Assembly: GCA_022560655.1 (NCBI GenBank)
Contig: JADFSS010000005.1
Location: 1-64,000, forward strand
Direction: 5' to 3'
Origin: Candidatus Neomarinimicrobiota bacterium
Lineage (GTDB): Bacteria > Fidelibacterota > Marinisomatia > SCGC-AAA003-L08 > TS1B11
DNA: 64,000 nt
Made by a program: the position numbers and the translations under genes
Shown: in pieces, positions 9,746 to 38,476 of the stretch
Numbering within the stretch: the stretch's first letter is position 1
How the letters are laid out: each line of letters begins with the position of its first letter
Notes under the pieces: model-generated
The model's input: the letters and a program-made list of their open reading frames with translations, nothing else
What the model was told of the DNA's origin: nothing
Databases searched by the model: none

Positions 9746-11035
9746 CTAATACATTGTCTTGATAAACACCTCTTTACGGACCCGAGCGATCCAATTTTCG
9801 AGGTATTTTGCCTGTTTGTCCCGCAGGGCGAGGGCCTCCAACTGTGGATAGTAGTCCTCAAGAGTTGGTGCCCCGCCGTCTTTGATGCCCAGAACTTTAA
9901 GCATGTGGAAAGCTGCTTGGGTTTCGAAAGGCGGGGTGACCTCGCCAGGCAGAACACCGAAGACGGCTGCACGGTAGGCCTCCTCCGGGAGACGGTTCAT
10001 TTCCAGCCAGCCGATATAGCCCAAGTCGGGAGAAGCGTTTTCTTCCTCTGAGAGCACCTGGACGAGGGAGTCAAAGAGCGCGGGTGCTGCTTCCAGCAGA
10101 TAGTAGTAATCGCGCACGCGGGTGAGGGCGGATTGCCTGTCGGCCTCGGTTGGGGTAATGGCCACCAGGATGTGGCGGACGCTGATGCGCTCACCCTGTT
10201 TTTCAAGGACCTCGATGATGTGGAAACCGAAGGGCGTTTCCACCACTTCGCTGAGTTCGCCGATAGCGAGCCCGAAGGCCGCTTCCTCAAAGGCGGGCAC
10301 GAAAACACCTCGGCGGACGAAACCAAGCTCGCCGCCCCGATCGGCGGATGCGGGGTCGTCGGAGTACAGCCGCGCCAGGTCAGCTAAAGCGGCTCCCTGG
10401 ACTATCTGGCGGCGCAAATCGTGAATCCTGGTGTGGGCCTGGTCGCGGGCGCTGTCGCCGGGCAGGACCTGTAAAATCAGCTGGGAGAACTCGATCTGCG
10501 CATCAACGGCCGGCAGGCTATCGCGGTAGGTTTCAAAGAAGGTGGTGACTTCGCCGCGCGTCACGGTGACACCGCCGACCTTTTCCTGCTGGTAGCGCTC
10601 GGCAATAATTTGATCCCTGATGTCATACCACCGGTCGCGGCGGAAATCGCGCAGGCTCTGGCCCACGACCTCTTCGAAGCGCTCTTCGGAGCCGATCTGG
10701 GCGATGATGGATGCGACCTGCTGTTCCAGGGCTTGGTCAACATCTTCATCCGGGATGATGTCAAGGCTGTCCACCTTGGCGCGGGCCAGGAGGATATTTT
10801 GCAACACGAGATTCTCGAACGCATCGGCCTGCAGCCGCTCAGCGAGCTGCGGATTGGCGGCCAGATTGATCCCGCTCTGAAGGGCGTTCATCTGGGCCAG
10901 CTGGGCAACAGAGCTTTTCAAGATGATCTTGTCACCCACGATGGCGGCAATGCCGTCCACCAGTTCCTGCGATCTCAGAGCGAGTGGCAGCAGCAGGAGG
11001 GCGAGGAGGAGCTTAGGGATGGAAGACCTGTACAT
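9746..11035 (-). CDS. surA: SurA-like periplasmic peptidyl-prolyl isomerase
   Basis: The product has about 429 aa from the ATG at 11035. This start is chosen because MYRSSIPKLLLALLLLPLAL then reads as a signal peptide, directly followed by QELVDGIAAIVGDKIILKS, the classic mature SurA N-terminus. An earlier in-frame start would put unrelated sequence before the signal. Two parvulin-type modules follow the helical N-domain: one with FSQLILQVLP and GGELGFVRRGVFVPAFEEAA, the other with SVRHILVAI and DLGYIGWLEMNRLPEEAY. SurA escorts outer-membrane beta-barrels such as LptD across the periplasm. Its start overlaps the end of the PPIase lipoprotein gene upstream by 23 bp. Confidence 0.85.
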   Translation of the reverse strand: MYRSSIPKLLLALLLLPLALRSQELVDGIAAIVGDKIILKSSVAQLAQMNALQSGINLAANPQLAERLQADAFENLVLQNILLARAKVDSLDIIPDEDVDQALEQQVASIIAQIGSEERFEEVVGQSLRDFRRDRWYDIRDQIIAERYQQEKVGGVTVTRGEVTTFFETYRDSLPAVDAQIEFSQLILQVLPGDSARDQAHTRIHDLRRQIVQGAALADLARLYSDDPASADRGGELGFVRRGVFVPAFEEAAFGLAIGELSEVVETPFGFHIIEVLEKQGERISVRHILVAITPTEADRQSALTRVRDYYYLLEAAPALFDSLVQVLSEEENASPDLGYIGWLEMNRLPEEAYRAAVFGVLPGEVTPPFETQAAFHMLKVLGIKDGGAPTLEDYYPQLEALALRDKQAKYLENWIARVRKEVFIKTMY

Positions 11036-35082: not shown

Positions 35083-35613
35083 TTACGGTTGGGCGGCTGC
35101 TTCGCGGAAATAGCGCAGAACATCCTGGTTGTGGGTGGTGACATCCACATCCTTGATGATCTTGACGACGCGCCCATCTTCATCAATGAGGAATGAGCGG
35201 CGGATGGCCATGGGGTAGATCCCCTTGGTGCCATACAGTTTGGAGACCTCTTTGCGGGCATCGCTAAGCAGGGCGAAGGGCAGTTCGTGCTTGGCGATAA
35301 AATCCCGGTGAGACTCCGGTGAGTCGTAGCTGATACCCAAAATGACGATGTTGGCCGTCTGATACTCGGCGTAGACATCGCGCAGACCGCACGCTTCCTT
35401 GGTGCAGCCGGGAGTGTCGTCCTTGGGGTAGAAGTAGACCAATACCCTCTGGCCGCGGTAATCGGACAGGGAGCGGTCCACTTCATGCTGATCGGGCAAG
35501 GTGAAGTCGGGCGCCAGGTCGCCTTCGGCCAGGGGCTCTGCGGCCAGCAGTACCCCGGCGGCAGCCAGCCACCCGGCCGCAATCAACCGCCCGATCGATA
35601 TGCCGCGCTGCAT
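35083..35613 (-). CDS. Exported Bcp-type peroxiredoxin
   Basis: The product has 176 aa: an N-terminal signal-like helix (LIAAGWLAAAGVLLA), then the AhpC/TSA fold. The peroxidatic Cys70 and a second Cys75 lie in YFYPKDDTPGCTKEACGLRD, the two-cysteine arrangement of Bcp/PrxQ. It reduces hydroperoxides, here probably in the periplasm. It contrasts with the second peroxiredoxin at 36789, which has UGA at the equivalent of Cys70. Confidence 0.9.
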   Translation of the reverse strand: MQRGISIGRLIAAGWLAAAGVLLAAEPLAEGDLAPDFTLPDQHEVDRSLSDYRGQRVLVYFYPKDDTPGCTKEACGLRDVYAEYQTANIVILGISYDSPESHRDFIAKHELPFALLSDARKEVSKLYGTKGIYPMAIRRSFLIDEDGRVVKIIKDVDVTTHNQDVLRYFREAAAQP

Positions 35614-35698: not shown

Positions 35699-36634
35699 TC
35701 AGGCCAGGGCGTCCGCAATGGCCTGCACCTGCTGAGGATCCAGTGTCTTTTGCGCGGCGGCCAGGTTTTCGTCCAGCTGCTCGGGCCGGGTGGCCCCCAC
35801 AATGACGGCCGCCACCTCCTCCCGGCGCAGGCACCAGCGCAGGGCCAGCTGTCCCAGGGTCATGCCGAACTGCTCCGCCAGCGGCCTGATCCGCTCCACG
35901 ACCGCCAGGTTGGCCTCCGTGAGGTAGGAGATGTCAAAATTCTTGCGGCTCTGGCGGCTGCCCTCCGGGATCTGGCCCGGGCGGTATTTGCCCGTGAGCA
36001 CTCCCTGTGCCAGCGGGGAGTAGACGATGTTGCCCACCCCGGCCTGCGCGCAGGCGGGGAAGAGGGTCTCTTCCGCCCCGCGGTCCAGGAGACTGTAGGG
36101 GGGCTGGCTGGAGCTGAAGGGAGTGCCCCCGCGCCCCTGCGCCGCGGCTTGGGCTGCCTCCAGCTGGGCTGCGGAGAAGTTTGAGCAGCCCAGGTAGAGC
36201 ACCTTGCCCTGGCGCACCAGCTGATCCAGGGCCGCCATGGTCTCCTCAATGGGGGTGTTGGGGTCCGGCGAGTGCACCTGGTAGAGGTCGATGGCCTCTA
36301 CGTCCAGGCGTCGCAGGGAGGCTTCGCAGGCGGTGATGATGTGCTTCCGGGAGAGGCCTTCCCCCATGGGGCCGGGCCACATGCGCCAGCGGCACTTGGT
36401 GGCCACCACAAGCTGCTGCCGCGGCAGTTCCTTCAGGGCCTTGCCCAGCACCACCTCCGACTGCCCATCAGCGTAAACGTCGGCCACGTCGAACAGGTTC
36501 ACCCCGGCAGCAAAGGCCTGGTGGATGAGGGCAATGGCGGCCTTCTCGTCCACCCAGCCCCCGACGTTGAGCCAGCCGCCCAGGGCAATCTCCGAGACCT
36601 GCAGGCCGCTGCGGCCCAGGTGGCGGTAGTTCAT
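35699..36634 (-). CDS. Aldo/keto reductase
   Basis: The product has 311 aa, a TIM-barrel NADPH oxidoreductase. The catalytic tetrad is visible: Asp49 and Tyr54 in NLFDVADVYADG, Lys80 in VVATKCRW and His121 in YQVHSPDP. The phosphate-binding C-terminal segment is VIVGATRPEQLDENLAAAQK. The sequence is closest to the Kv-beta/YghZ-like branch; the physiological carbonyl substrate is unknown. It is divergent from the UGA-containing peroxiredoxin gene, with about 150 bp of shared upstream region. Confidence 0.92.
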   Translation of the reverse strand: MNYRHLGRSGLQVSEIALGGWLNVGGWVDEKAAIALIHQAFAAGVNLFDVADVYADGQSEVVLGKALKELPRQQLVVATKCRWRMWPGPMGEGLSRKHIITACEASLRRLDVEAIDLYQVHSPDPNTPIEETMAALDQLVRQGKVLYLGCSNFSAAQLEAAQAAAQGRGGTPFSSSQPPYSLLDRGAEETLFPACAQAGVGNIVYSPLAQGVLTGKYRPGQIPEGSRQSRKNFDISYLTEANLAVVERIRPLAEQFGMTLGQLALRWCLRREEVAAVIVGATRPEQLDENLAAAQKTLDPQQVQAIADALA

Positions 36635-36788
36635 GCTGGCGAGCCTAAGTACATGGGGAGGGTGGCAATTTACGGGCGGCGGCCAGCGGGCGACAATAGT
36701 TGGGCCGCCTGCAGGGCAGTGCTAAATTAACCCGTTGAAGCGGGCCGCCGGCCCCACCACTGACCACCGCATCCCATAAGGAGAGACC

Positions 36789-37247
36789 ATGCTACTGGAA
36801 CCGGGCACAGCCGCCCCCGACTTCACCCTCCCCGATGCCGATAACCAGCGGGTGTCGCTGAGCGACTTCCGGGGACGTAAGCTGGTGCTATGGTTTTTCC
36901 CCAAAGCCAATACCCCTGGCTGAATTATCGAAGGCAAGGGATTCCGGGACGAATTCCAGGCGTTTGAGCAGGCCGGCATCCAGATCGTGGGCGTGAGCGG
37001 CGACCCACCGGTGAAGCAGAAGAAGTTCGCGGACAAGTACGGCTTCCCATACCCCCTGCTGTGCGACGAGGGGCACGAGGTGATGAAGGCCTACGGCGTG
37101 TGGGGCCCCAAGAAGATGTTGGGGCGGGAGTACGAGGGCATCCGCCGCACGACGTACCTCATTGATGAGCAAGGCAACGTTGCCAAAGTCTATGCCAAGG
37201 TGCGGCCGCCGAACCACGCCAAGGCGATTTTGGAGGAGTGGGCGTAG
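36789..37247 (+). CDS. Probable selenocysteine-containing peroxiredoxin (in-frame UGA)
   Basis: An ATG at 36789, with AAGGAG five bases upstream, starts a frame interrupted only by TGA at 36921-36923 (codon 45). Reading that codon as selenocysteine gives 152 residues of a complete Bcp-like peroxiredoxin: LEPGTAAPDFTLPDAD, LVLWFFPKANTPG-U-IIEGKGFRDEF, then GIQIVGVSGDPPVKQKKFAD and RTTYLIDEQGNVAKVY. The UGA falls exactly at the peroxidatic cysteine of the TPGC motif. No resolving cysteine follows at +5. Sequence on both sides is in the same frame and fully conserved. A hairpin directly after the UGA could be the SECIS. The alternative is a nonsense mutation or sequencing error; simple gene calling would report only the second part from 36987. 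Confidence 0.82.
36920..36959 (+). promoter_or_regulatory. SECIS-like hairpin after the in-frame UGA
   Basis: The bases CTGAATT (36920-36926, including the UGA) can pair with AATTCCAG (36952-36959) with one bulged C. Inside this, GAA (36930-36932) and TTC (36942-36944) can close a G-rich loop beginning GG. Bacterial SECIS elements sit in the coding sequence just after the UGA and carry an exposed G near the loop. Spacing is compact compared with known examples, so the call is tentative. Confidence 0.4.
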
Positions 37248-37351: not shown

Positions 37352-38476
37352 TCAATCAGCATCTCCGGCTGAGCCTAAATCTCTAATTATGCTGTCTCCG
37401 ACCTCGATAGCCCGGGAGGCTGAAGCAATCGTCATCTCAACATTGTCTACAAGCCGCCTAACTTGTTTGGCTGCATTACTAGTTGCCTTGTTAAGAAAGC
37501 GCTCAATCTTCGGAATCTGGTCCAGTGCCACGCTAAGATTCGCAAACGAATCTCTACCTGCCCTAGCTTTTTCAAGCAATTCTCTGATCGGCTCAAGCTG
37601 AACTGAGATGAGTTCGTGCCCGGTCTCTGGGTTGTCGGCAATCAAATTCCCAAAGAATGAGATGATAAACTCAAGGCTGTTACTAGTAGTTGATGTTACC
37701 TCACTATATCGAACGTTCGCTTCCTCCAATTTGAGCGCAAATCGATCGATGTCTATTGCAATAGAACGGGATATGGCCCTAGAGTGTGCTGCCGATTCAG
37801 AGTTCTTGAACCCCTTTGTTCCACGATTCATGGCGGCAGTAATGGCGTCCATCTCCTCTCCAACGTCATTTATAATGTCCGTAAGGAGAAGGAATCCCTC
37901 CTCCATATCTGCTACGTGGTCTAAGAATCCCCGCTCATCACTCGAATTAGGATCCTTAGCGCCAACCCCTAGATTGGGGACCCCAGTGGAATGATTCGTT
38001 TGATCAGCAGGTTCTTTGACAGACCCACCGTGATGCGGGAGAAAATCGGTTATAGGATTCCCAAATCTTACGCCGCCCGAAAGAAATCCAGACGCGAGTT
38101 CGCTAAGTCGACTGCGAGCGGTGTCAATTTCAGCGAAATGCGTGCTGTAGGAGACAAAGCGATAGGGCTTGAGATCAAACGGTATTTCCTCGGAGTCTTG
38201 CGTCAGATGAATCACTGGGCGTTGAAGAGCATGAGCAAGACCGAGCTCATAAAAGACATTTTCATTACCGCCGGTGAGGTCTGCGATGACCAGATCTGAC
38301 TCTGAAAGAGAAACCACAATATCCTGCAGAATGCTTCGCTGGTTTTGGATGTCATCGGCGCGAAACACCTCAAAGCCTAACTTTTCCAACGCAGGCTTTA
38401 TGAACTGAGCATATACAGCGTCGAATTCCTTATCGAATGGCATGATAACGAAAGCGCGCGGCATTTTTGCTGTCAT
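37352..38476 (-). CDS. TIR/nucleoside-deoxyribosyltransferase-like domain protein
   Basis: The product has 374 aa. The N-terminal 130 or so residues form a TIR/NDT-like Rossmann domain: RAFVIMPFDKEFDAVYAQFI, ADDIQNQRSILQDIV, SDLVIADLTGGNENVFYELG and LAHALQRPVIHLTQDSEEIP. The remaining 240 or so residues are largely helical with no recognised family. Proteins with this N-domain and a variable C-part are frequent in phage-defence islands as NAD- or nucleotide-hydrolysing effectors, but here the role is inference. The composition is visibly AT-richer than its neighbours. The ATG overlaps the stop of the downstream DegT gene by four bases in an ATGA arrangement, as read on the minus strand. Confidence 0.72.
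   Translation of the reverse strand: MTAKMPRAFVIMPFDKEFDAVYAQFIKPALEKLGFEVFRADDIQNQRSILQDIVVSLSESDLVIADLTGGNENVFYELGLAHALQRPVIHLTQDSEEIPFDLKPYRFVSYSTHFAEIDTARSRLSELASGFLSGGVRFGNPITDFLPHHGGSVKEPADQTNHSTGVPNLGVGAKDPNSSDERGFLDHVADMEEGFLLLTDIINDVGEEMDAITAAMNRGTKGFKNSESAAHSRAISRSIAIDIDRFALKLEEANVRYSEVTSTTSNSLEFIISFFGNLIADNPETGHELISVQLEPIRELLEKARAGRDSFANLSVALDQIPKIERFLNKATSNAAKQVRRLVDNVEMTIASASRAIEVGDSIIRDLGSAGDAD

Follow-up and report, generated by a model that had tools for sequence, protein, structure and literature searches.

Peroxiredoxins (Prx) that carry selenocysteine (Sec) have been described repeatedly: a Sargasso Sea survey reported 43 of them, assigned to COG1225 and marked by the motif TxxU (PMC1088965), the GOS survey contained 253 sequences (PMC2398784) and 91 were counted in sequenced bacteria (PMC5029168), while Cys-to-Sec conversion in Prx has previously been inferred to have taken place five times (PMC1794560). 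One such protein, PrxU of Eubacterium acidaminophilum, has been studied at the protein level (Sohling 2001, as cited in PMC13188914). Here we analyze a prxQ-type gene in the window, i.e., the whole 64,000-nucleotide stretch of DNA under analysis, which stems from a draft genome that its named relatives assign to Candidatus Neomarinimicrobiota (Fidelibacterota, the SAR406 clade). Because Sec-peroxiredoxins are already on record in the surveys and in PrxU, the gene belongs to a known kind: it is a further Sec-peroxiredoxin, of a kind known since 2001-2005, and does not define a new family.

The marine-survey proteins (TxxU, COG1225/PF00578) are Bcp-type, marine and common, and the window protein shares their motif in the form TPGU; likened by motif and description, it very likely belongs to the same family. 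However, those sequences are environmental reads, whereas the present gene sits in a genome with Sec machinery and within a phylum-wide Sec/Cys phylogeny. It is plausible that the SAR406 clade was the source of some of the Sargasso and GOS reads; a limited literature search found no paper assigning a Sec-Prx to SAR406, and an earlier report may exist. PrxU (NF040737) likewise has Sec at the peroxidatic site but represents a different subfamily, whose cut-off of 270 bits the window protein, at 44.1 bits, does not reach. The Cys-containing PrxQ/BCP enzymes (NF006960; PDB 5enu, Xanthomonas PrxQ 5iiz and the BCP chain of 9a4d), in turn, share the fold (TM 0.90-0.95), the length and the TPG-C/U motif, yet they have Cys where the window protein has Sec, and the latter is devoid of a resolving Cys at +5 or +36 from the peroxidatic residue. 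The original prediction of a "probable new selenoprotein" is accordingly to be kept in its second word, which the genome, homologue and SECIS checks described below support, and narrowed in its first, since novelty holds for the gene only and the family is established (PMC1088965, PMC2398784, PMC13188914).

An in-frame TGA at the peroxidatic position

Table 1. Coordinates of the Sec gene, its recoding signals and its neighbors in the window
Feature	Position	Strand	Remarks
Cys PrxQ paralogue	35083..35613	-	TPGCTKEAC, resolving Cys at +5, N-terminal hydrophobic segment; near the Sec gene
Aldo/keto reductase	35699-36634	-	Between the Cys PrxQ paralogue and the Sec gene
Shine-Dalgarno AAGGAG	36778..36783	+	5 nt upstream of ATG; direct reading, comparable sites before orthologues
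prxQ-type peroxiredoxin gene	36789..37247	+	In-frame TGA as predicted Sec45; 152 residues; terminal TAG; supported by orthologues
Predicted Sec codon TGA, peroxidatic position (TPG-U)	36921..36923	+	Aligned with TGC/TGT in Cys homologues and reverted relatives
SECIS-like stem-loop	36939..36956	+	6-bp stem 36939-36944 / 36951-36956, 7 bp with 36938/36957; 22 nt after UGA

Read from its ATG, the gene translates as MLLEPGTAAPDFTLPDADNQRVSLSDFRGRKLVLWFFPKANTPG*IIEGKGFRDEF...EEWA* (asterisks denote stop codons), and direct reading bears out the prediction that the frame is interrupted solely by the TGA, at the catalytic Cys of TPGC, where every Cys homologue has Cys. Both flanks had been claimed to be intact Prx sequence in one frame; the read-through product indeed matches Pfam AhpC-TSA over 123/124 positions (133.7 bits) and scores 160.4 bits against NCBIfam NF006960, "thioredoxin-dependent thiol peroxidase" (cut-off 140), and the frame is intact in relatives. 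The predicted ribosome site, the TPGC of the other Prx in the window and the truncated automatic call are likewise found, a standard ORF caller returning only an 86-aa GTG fragment (36987-37247). The UGA "stop" of this apparently broken PrxQ gene, which encodes an intact antioxidant enzyme, is almost certainly decoded as selenocysteine, the residue then occupying the catalytic site, and to the reading as a whole, namely a cytoplasmic PrxQ/BCP-type thiol peroxidase with Sec45 as its peroxidatic residue and a UGA recoded through SelB and the stem-loop, we assign a probability of about 0.96; its recoding context, machinery, fold and motif, and Sec/Cys exchange can all be read from the sequences themselves.

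Of the order's 41 genomes, 31 hold an orthologue whose frame is interrupted by a single stop, always TGA, and each of the 30 sequences read has it at the very same codon, in agreement with the prediction that a random nonsense mutation is unlikely. The best 80 named loci comprise eight with TGA, all from Neomarinimicrobiota, and 72 with TGT or TGC, mostly from Bacteroidota and Chloroflexota but also from Chlorobiota and one archaeon; the out-group Cys proteins chosen for comparison have TGC or TGT at the Sec codon in 75 of 75 cases. A search through the 245 genomes of the phylum located orthologues with TGA in 14 family codes; in others the orthologues are free of stops. The TGC/TGA exchange that had been proposed as a check is seen at the Sec codon (TGC/TGT to TGA), even inside one genus. 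A UGA that lies in frame at a redox-active position occupied by Cys in the homologues is what would be expected of a bacterial selenoprotein. The notion of a pseudogene or of an assembly or sequencing error, whereby a Cys codon (TGC/TGT) was mutated or miscalled to TGA, requires a change of just one base and could appeal to the 128-contig draft from which the window comes, but it is refuted by the conservation of the same TGA, which recurs in 31 of the order's genomes and in many others across the phylum, with frames otherwise intact and conserved and with synonymous constraint and covariation in the nucleotides 3' of it, and we regard it as having practically no chance of being correct.

An AlphaFold model of the Sec protein adopts the canonical Prx fold (pLDDT 95.9) and places Sec45 within the first turn of the helix spanning residues 43-54; in the PDB it is matched best by BCP/PrxQ structures (TM up to 0.95). 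Together with the NF006960 score, the Gly directly before Sec (TPG-U) places the protein in the PrxQ/BCP subfamily, of which a Gly before the peroxidatic residue is a hallmark (PMC5302317). In this protein +5 is occupied by Lys and +36 by Ala, and its sole other Cys is Cys92 (+47); the missing resolving Cys was not counted against the assignment, because this residue, common at +5 but not universal, varies in its place in PrxQ (PMC5302317).

The window was also scanned by composition for further genes interrupted by TGA; the scan recovered position 36921 and returned two weak candidates, at 10049 (+) and 28772 (-), which were set aside as they resemble shadow frames. No relatives were found in viral_contigs.

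The stem-loop and the decoding machinery

Six nucleotides, CGGGAC (36945-36950), make up the apical loop of the stem-loop; the second of them, at 36946, is an invariant G, present in 54 of 54 Sec genes. Lying just 3' of the UGA and closed by a small apical loop with a G, the structure has the attributes of a bacterial SECIS element and is predicted to bind SelB. A collapse of third-position diversity is confined to the codons GGR TTC CGK GAY GAA TTC, 6 to 11 codons past the UGA: Phe is encoded there by TTC in 30/30 and 24/24 cases and mostly by TTT at other conserved Phe positions, Arg by CGT or CGG only, with AGA frequent elsewhere in the gene, and Gly by GGA or GGG only, with all four Gly codons used elsewhere in the gene. 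RNAalifold, run unguided, recovered the same stem with seven pairs and the 6-nt loop CGKGAY. Across the 54 Sec genes 98.1% of stem cells are paired and double changes occur in five of the six pairs, a result matched by none of 500 shuffles; as examples of compensatory change, eight sequences have CG in place of UA (Phe-to-Leu accompanied by GAA-to-GAG) and six have GC in place of AU, and sliding the partner by one base lowers pairing to at most 63%. The check for a bacterial SECIS thus yielded a SECIS-like stem-loop with covariation.

None of the Cys out-groups forms more than four of the six stem pairs, and among relatives that have reverted to Cys the stem survives in family f18, has mutated in f12 and has largely disappeared from f13, a gradation that fits a recent versus an older loss of need. 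When the window stem was folded alone its stability did not differ significantly from that of shuffled sequences (z -0.89 and -0.47), and for this reason support for the stem was taken from the comparison. At gathering thresholds Rfam gave no match anywhere in the window, and its matches near the UGA were attributable to chance; this null result was given no weight, because the SECIS of the Sec gene escapes Rfam.

The genome to which the window belongs (2.33 Mb in 128 contigs, a draft that is 95% complete) contains all four components for which a search had been proposed: a tRNA-Sec with anticodon TCA (65.2 bits, gathering 47), SelA (446.8 bits) and, immediately after it on contig C62, SelB (343.2 bits), and SelD (367.7 bits; L057, contig C7:32972-33940), which has an in-frame TGA of its own near the N-terminus and is probably itself a selenoprotein. 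A further SelD-like match, partial and devoid of TGA, is located at C14:34994-35437. Since the machinery genes sit on other contigs of the draft genome, relatives were checked for SelA: within the order 37 of 41 genomes have a match, which exceeds the cut-off in 35, and the 14 good-quality genomes all have one; across the phylum SelA is present in 177 of 245 genomes. Running counter to this, six TGA-form genomes have no strong SelA match (G031, G038, G016, G020, G024 and G066), although these are MAGs just 65-89% complete. In view of the phylum-wide figure, the three SAR406 genomes that a 2016 survey placed among holders of an "orphan SelD" (Table 1 of PMC5029168) may be incomplete genomes of Sec users.

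The same evidence bears on the proposal that UGA is reassigned throughout the genome, e.g. to Trp or Cys, rather than decoded as Sec. Nothing beyond read-through itself speaks for it, and it is at odds with the presence of SelA, SelB, SelD and a canonical tRNA-Sec(UCA), with the coding of conserved Trp positions by TGG (29/29 and 30/30), with the Cys that homologues have at the site and with the SECIS that follows the UGA, leaving it very improbable.

Sec and Cys forms across the phylum

A tree of 100 proteins, calculated by maximum likelihood with the trait columns left out and with root and direction inferred from the out-groups, requires five Sec/Cys changes (bootstrap range 5-5), four of which are forced by well-supported branches. 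The simplest reading is that a single Cys-to-Sec switch took place at the base of a class-level clade and was followed by four reversions, the Sec-to-Cys reversions within the phylum thereby numbering at least four. They map to G073 in family f12, to G155/G156 (whose congener G157 keeps TGA), to G162/G163 and to family f13.

Family f13 (G076-G099) consists of small genomes of 0.4-1.0 Mb. No SelA was found among the f13 genomes listed, tRNA-Sec and SelD are absent in 12 of the 12 tested, and the orthologues whose codon was read have Cys in all nine cases, a count that leaves out loci L147, L148, L156 and L158, which had no match in the motif search; this family appears to have lost the entire Sec trait. 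The revertants outside f13 retain tRNA-Sec and SelD, and reversion can therefore precede loss of the machinery.

Resolving cysteine, mechanism and genomic neighborhood

In the Prx reaction, conserved Pro, Thr and Arg residues activate the peroxide. For the window protein we infer the actual insertion of Sec, the peroxidase activity and the reductant alike. SelB carrying Sec-tRNA(UCA) would bind the stem-loop about 22 nt 3' of the UGA, such that Sec is inserted and termination does not occur; the selenolate of Sec45, near the N-terminus of the active-site helix, would attack peroxides with the aid of the conserved PxxxTxxU motif and an Arg, and would thereby be converted to a selenenic acid. 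As there is no resolving Cys at +5 or +36, the selenenic acid would then probably be reduced directly by an external thiol, e.g. thioredoxin, in a 1-Sec mechanism.

The distribution of resolving Cys residues suggests such a mechanism, with a resolving Cys needed again once Sec is given up. The residue at +5 is present in all 75 out-group Cys proteins; Cys is absent from both +5 and +36 in 33 of the 54 Sec forms, including the window protein; and 13 of the 14 Cys revertants have a resolving Cys, at +36 in twelve and at +5 in one. The 1-Sec reading is weakened by the Cys that five Sec forms retain at +5 and sixteen have at +36, and by Cys92, which might in principle act as resolving residue. Absence of the resolving Cys is associated with Sec (33/54 vs 1/46, Fisher p 6e-11), but this association was not accepted alone as evidence because the independent phylogenetic pairs number four, which cannot reach significance; since it is confounded by descent, the 1-Sec reading is offered as a hypothesis. 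A more tentative scenario, to which we would give somewhat less than even odds, is that Sec frees PrxQ from the resolving Cys, that this Cys was lost with or after the switch, and that reversion is tolerated almost only in lineages carrying or re-evolving one, mostly at the new place +36.

The enzyme might, conversely, be a two-site Sec-Cys peroxidase whose resolving residue is Cys92 (+47) or, in relatives, a Cys at +36 or +5. Family f1 and much of f5 conserve Cys92, a +47 Cys occurs in 26 of the 54 Sec forms, the place of the resolving Cys varies among PrxQ enzymes (PMC5302317), and +36 matches the spacing of Cys48 to Cys84, the residues mutated in the Xanthomonas PrxQ structures 5io2 and 5iph. 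Set against this, Cys is absent from +5, +36 and +47 alike in eleven Sec forms, five forms are devoid of any other Cys, and +47 is Ser in many orthologues. No PrxQ whose resolving Cys lies at +47 is known to us, and on balance we consider a Sec-Cys pair unlikely.

The Cys-containing paralogue listed in Table 1 is not peculiar to the window: a Cys-PrxQ on the opposite strand lies within about 4.3 kb of the Sec-PrxQ in ten genomes of families f1 and f5 (G000, G029, G031, G032, G034-G036 and G038-G040), so that the pair represents a conserved neighborhood. On the other side of the Sec gene, the 374-aa product of 37352-38476 (-) weakly matches nucleoside deoxyribosyltransferase, at 28.4 bits for a cut-off of 28.8, and the stretch that holds this gene looks AT-richer than its surroundings. 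Elsewhere in the genome, two adjoining genes on contig C6, L025:2624-4792 (-) (~30.6-32.8 kb) and L025:4705-5532 (-) (~32.7-33.5 kb), probably encode further selenoproteins: their products have AhpC/TSA-thioredoxin domains with UxxC (ASWUPVC, ASWUTVC), in one case fused to LVIVD repeats, and both end in a Por secretion C-terminal sorting domain. They would be exported selenoproteins of a Gram-negative bacterium with a type IX-like secretion tag.

These findings correct an annotation error, in that a working enzyme would otherwise be called an 86-aa fragment, and, given the distribution of SelA, they show that Sec use is widespread in Neomarinimicrobiota/SAR406. The switch between Sec and Cys can be traced across a whole uncultured marine phylum, in which a single gain of Sec, its reversion to Cys on at least four occasions and one disappearance of the entire machinery make up a natural series bearing on what selenium buys a peroxidase. 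Family f13, where the Sec machinery is lost and the Prx orthologues have Cys, is a clean natural experiment in this respect.
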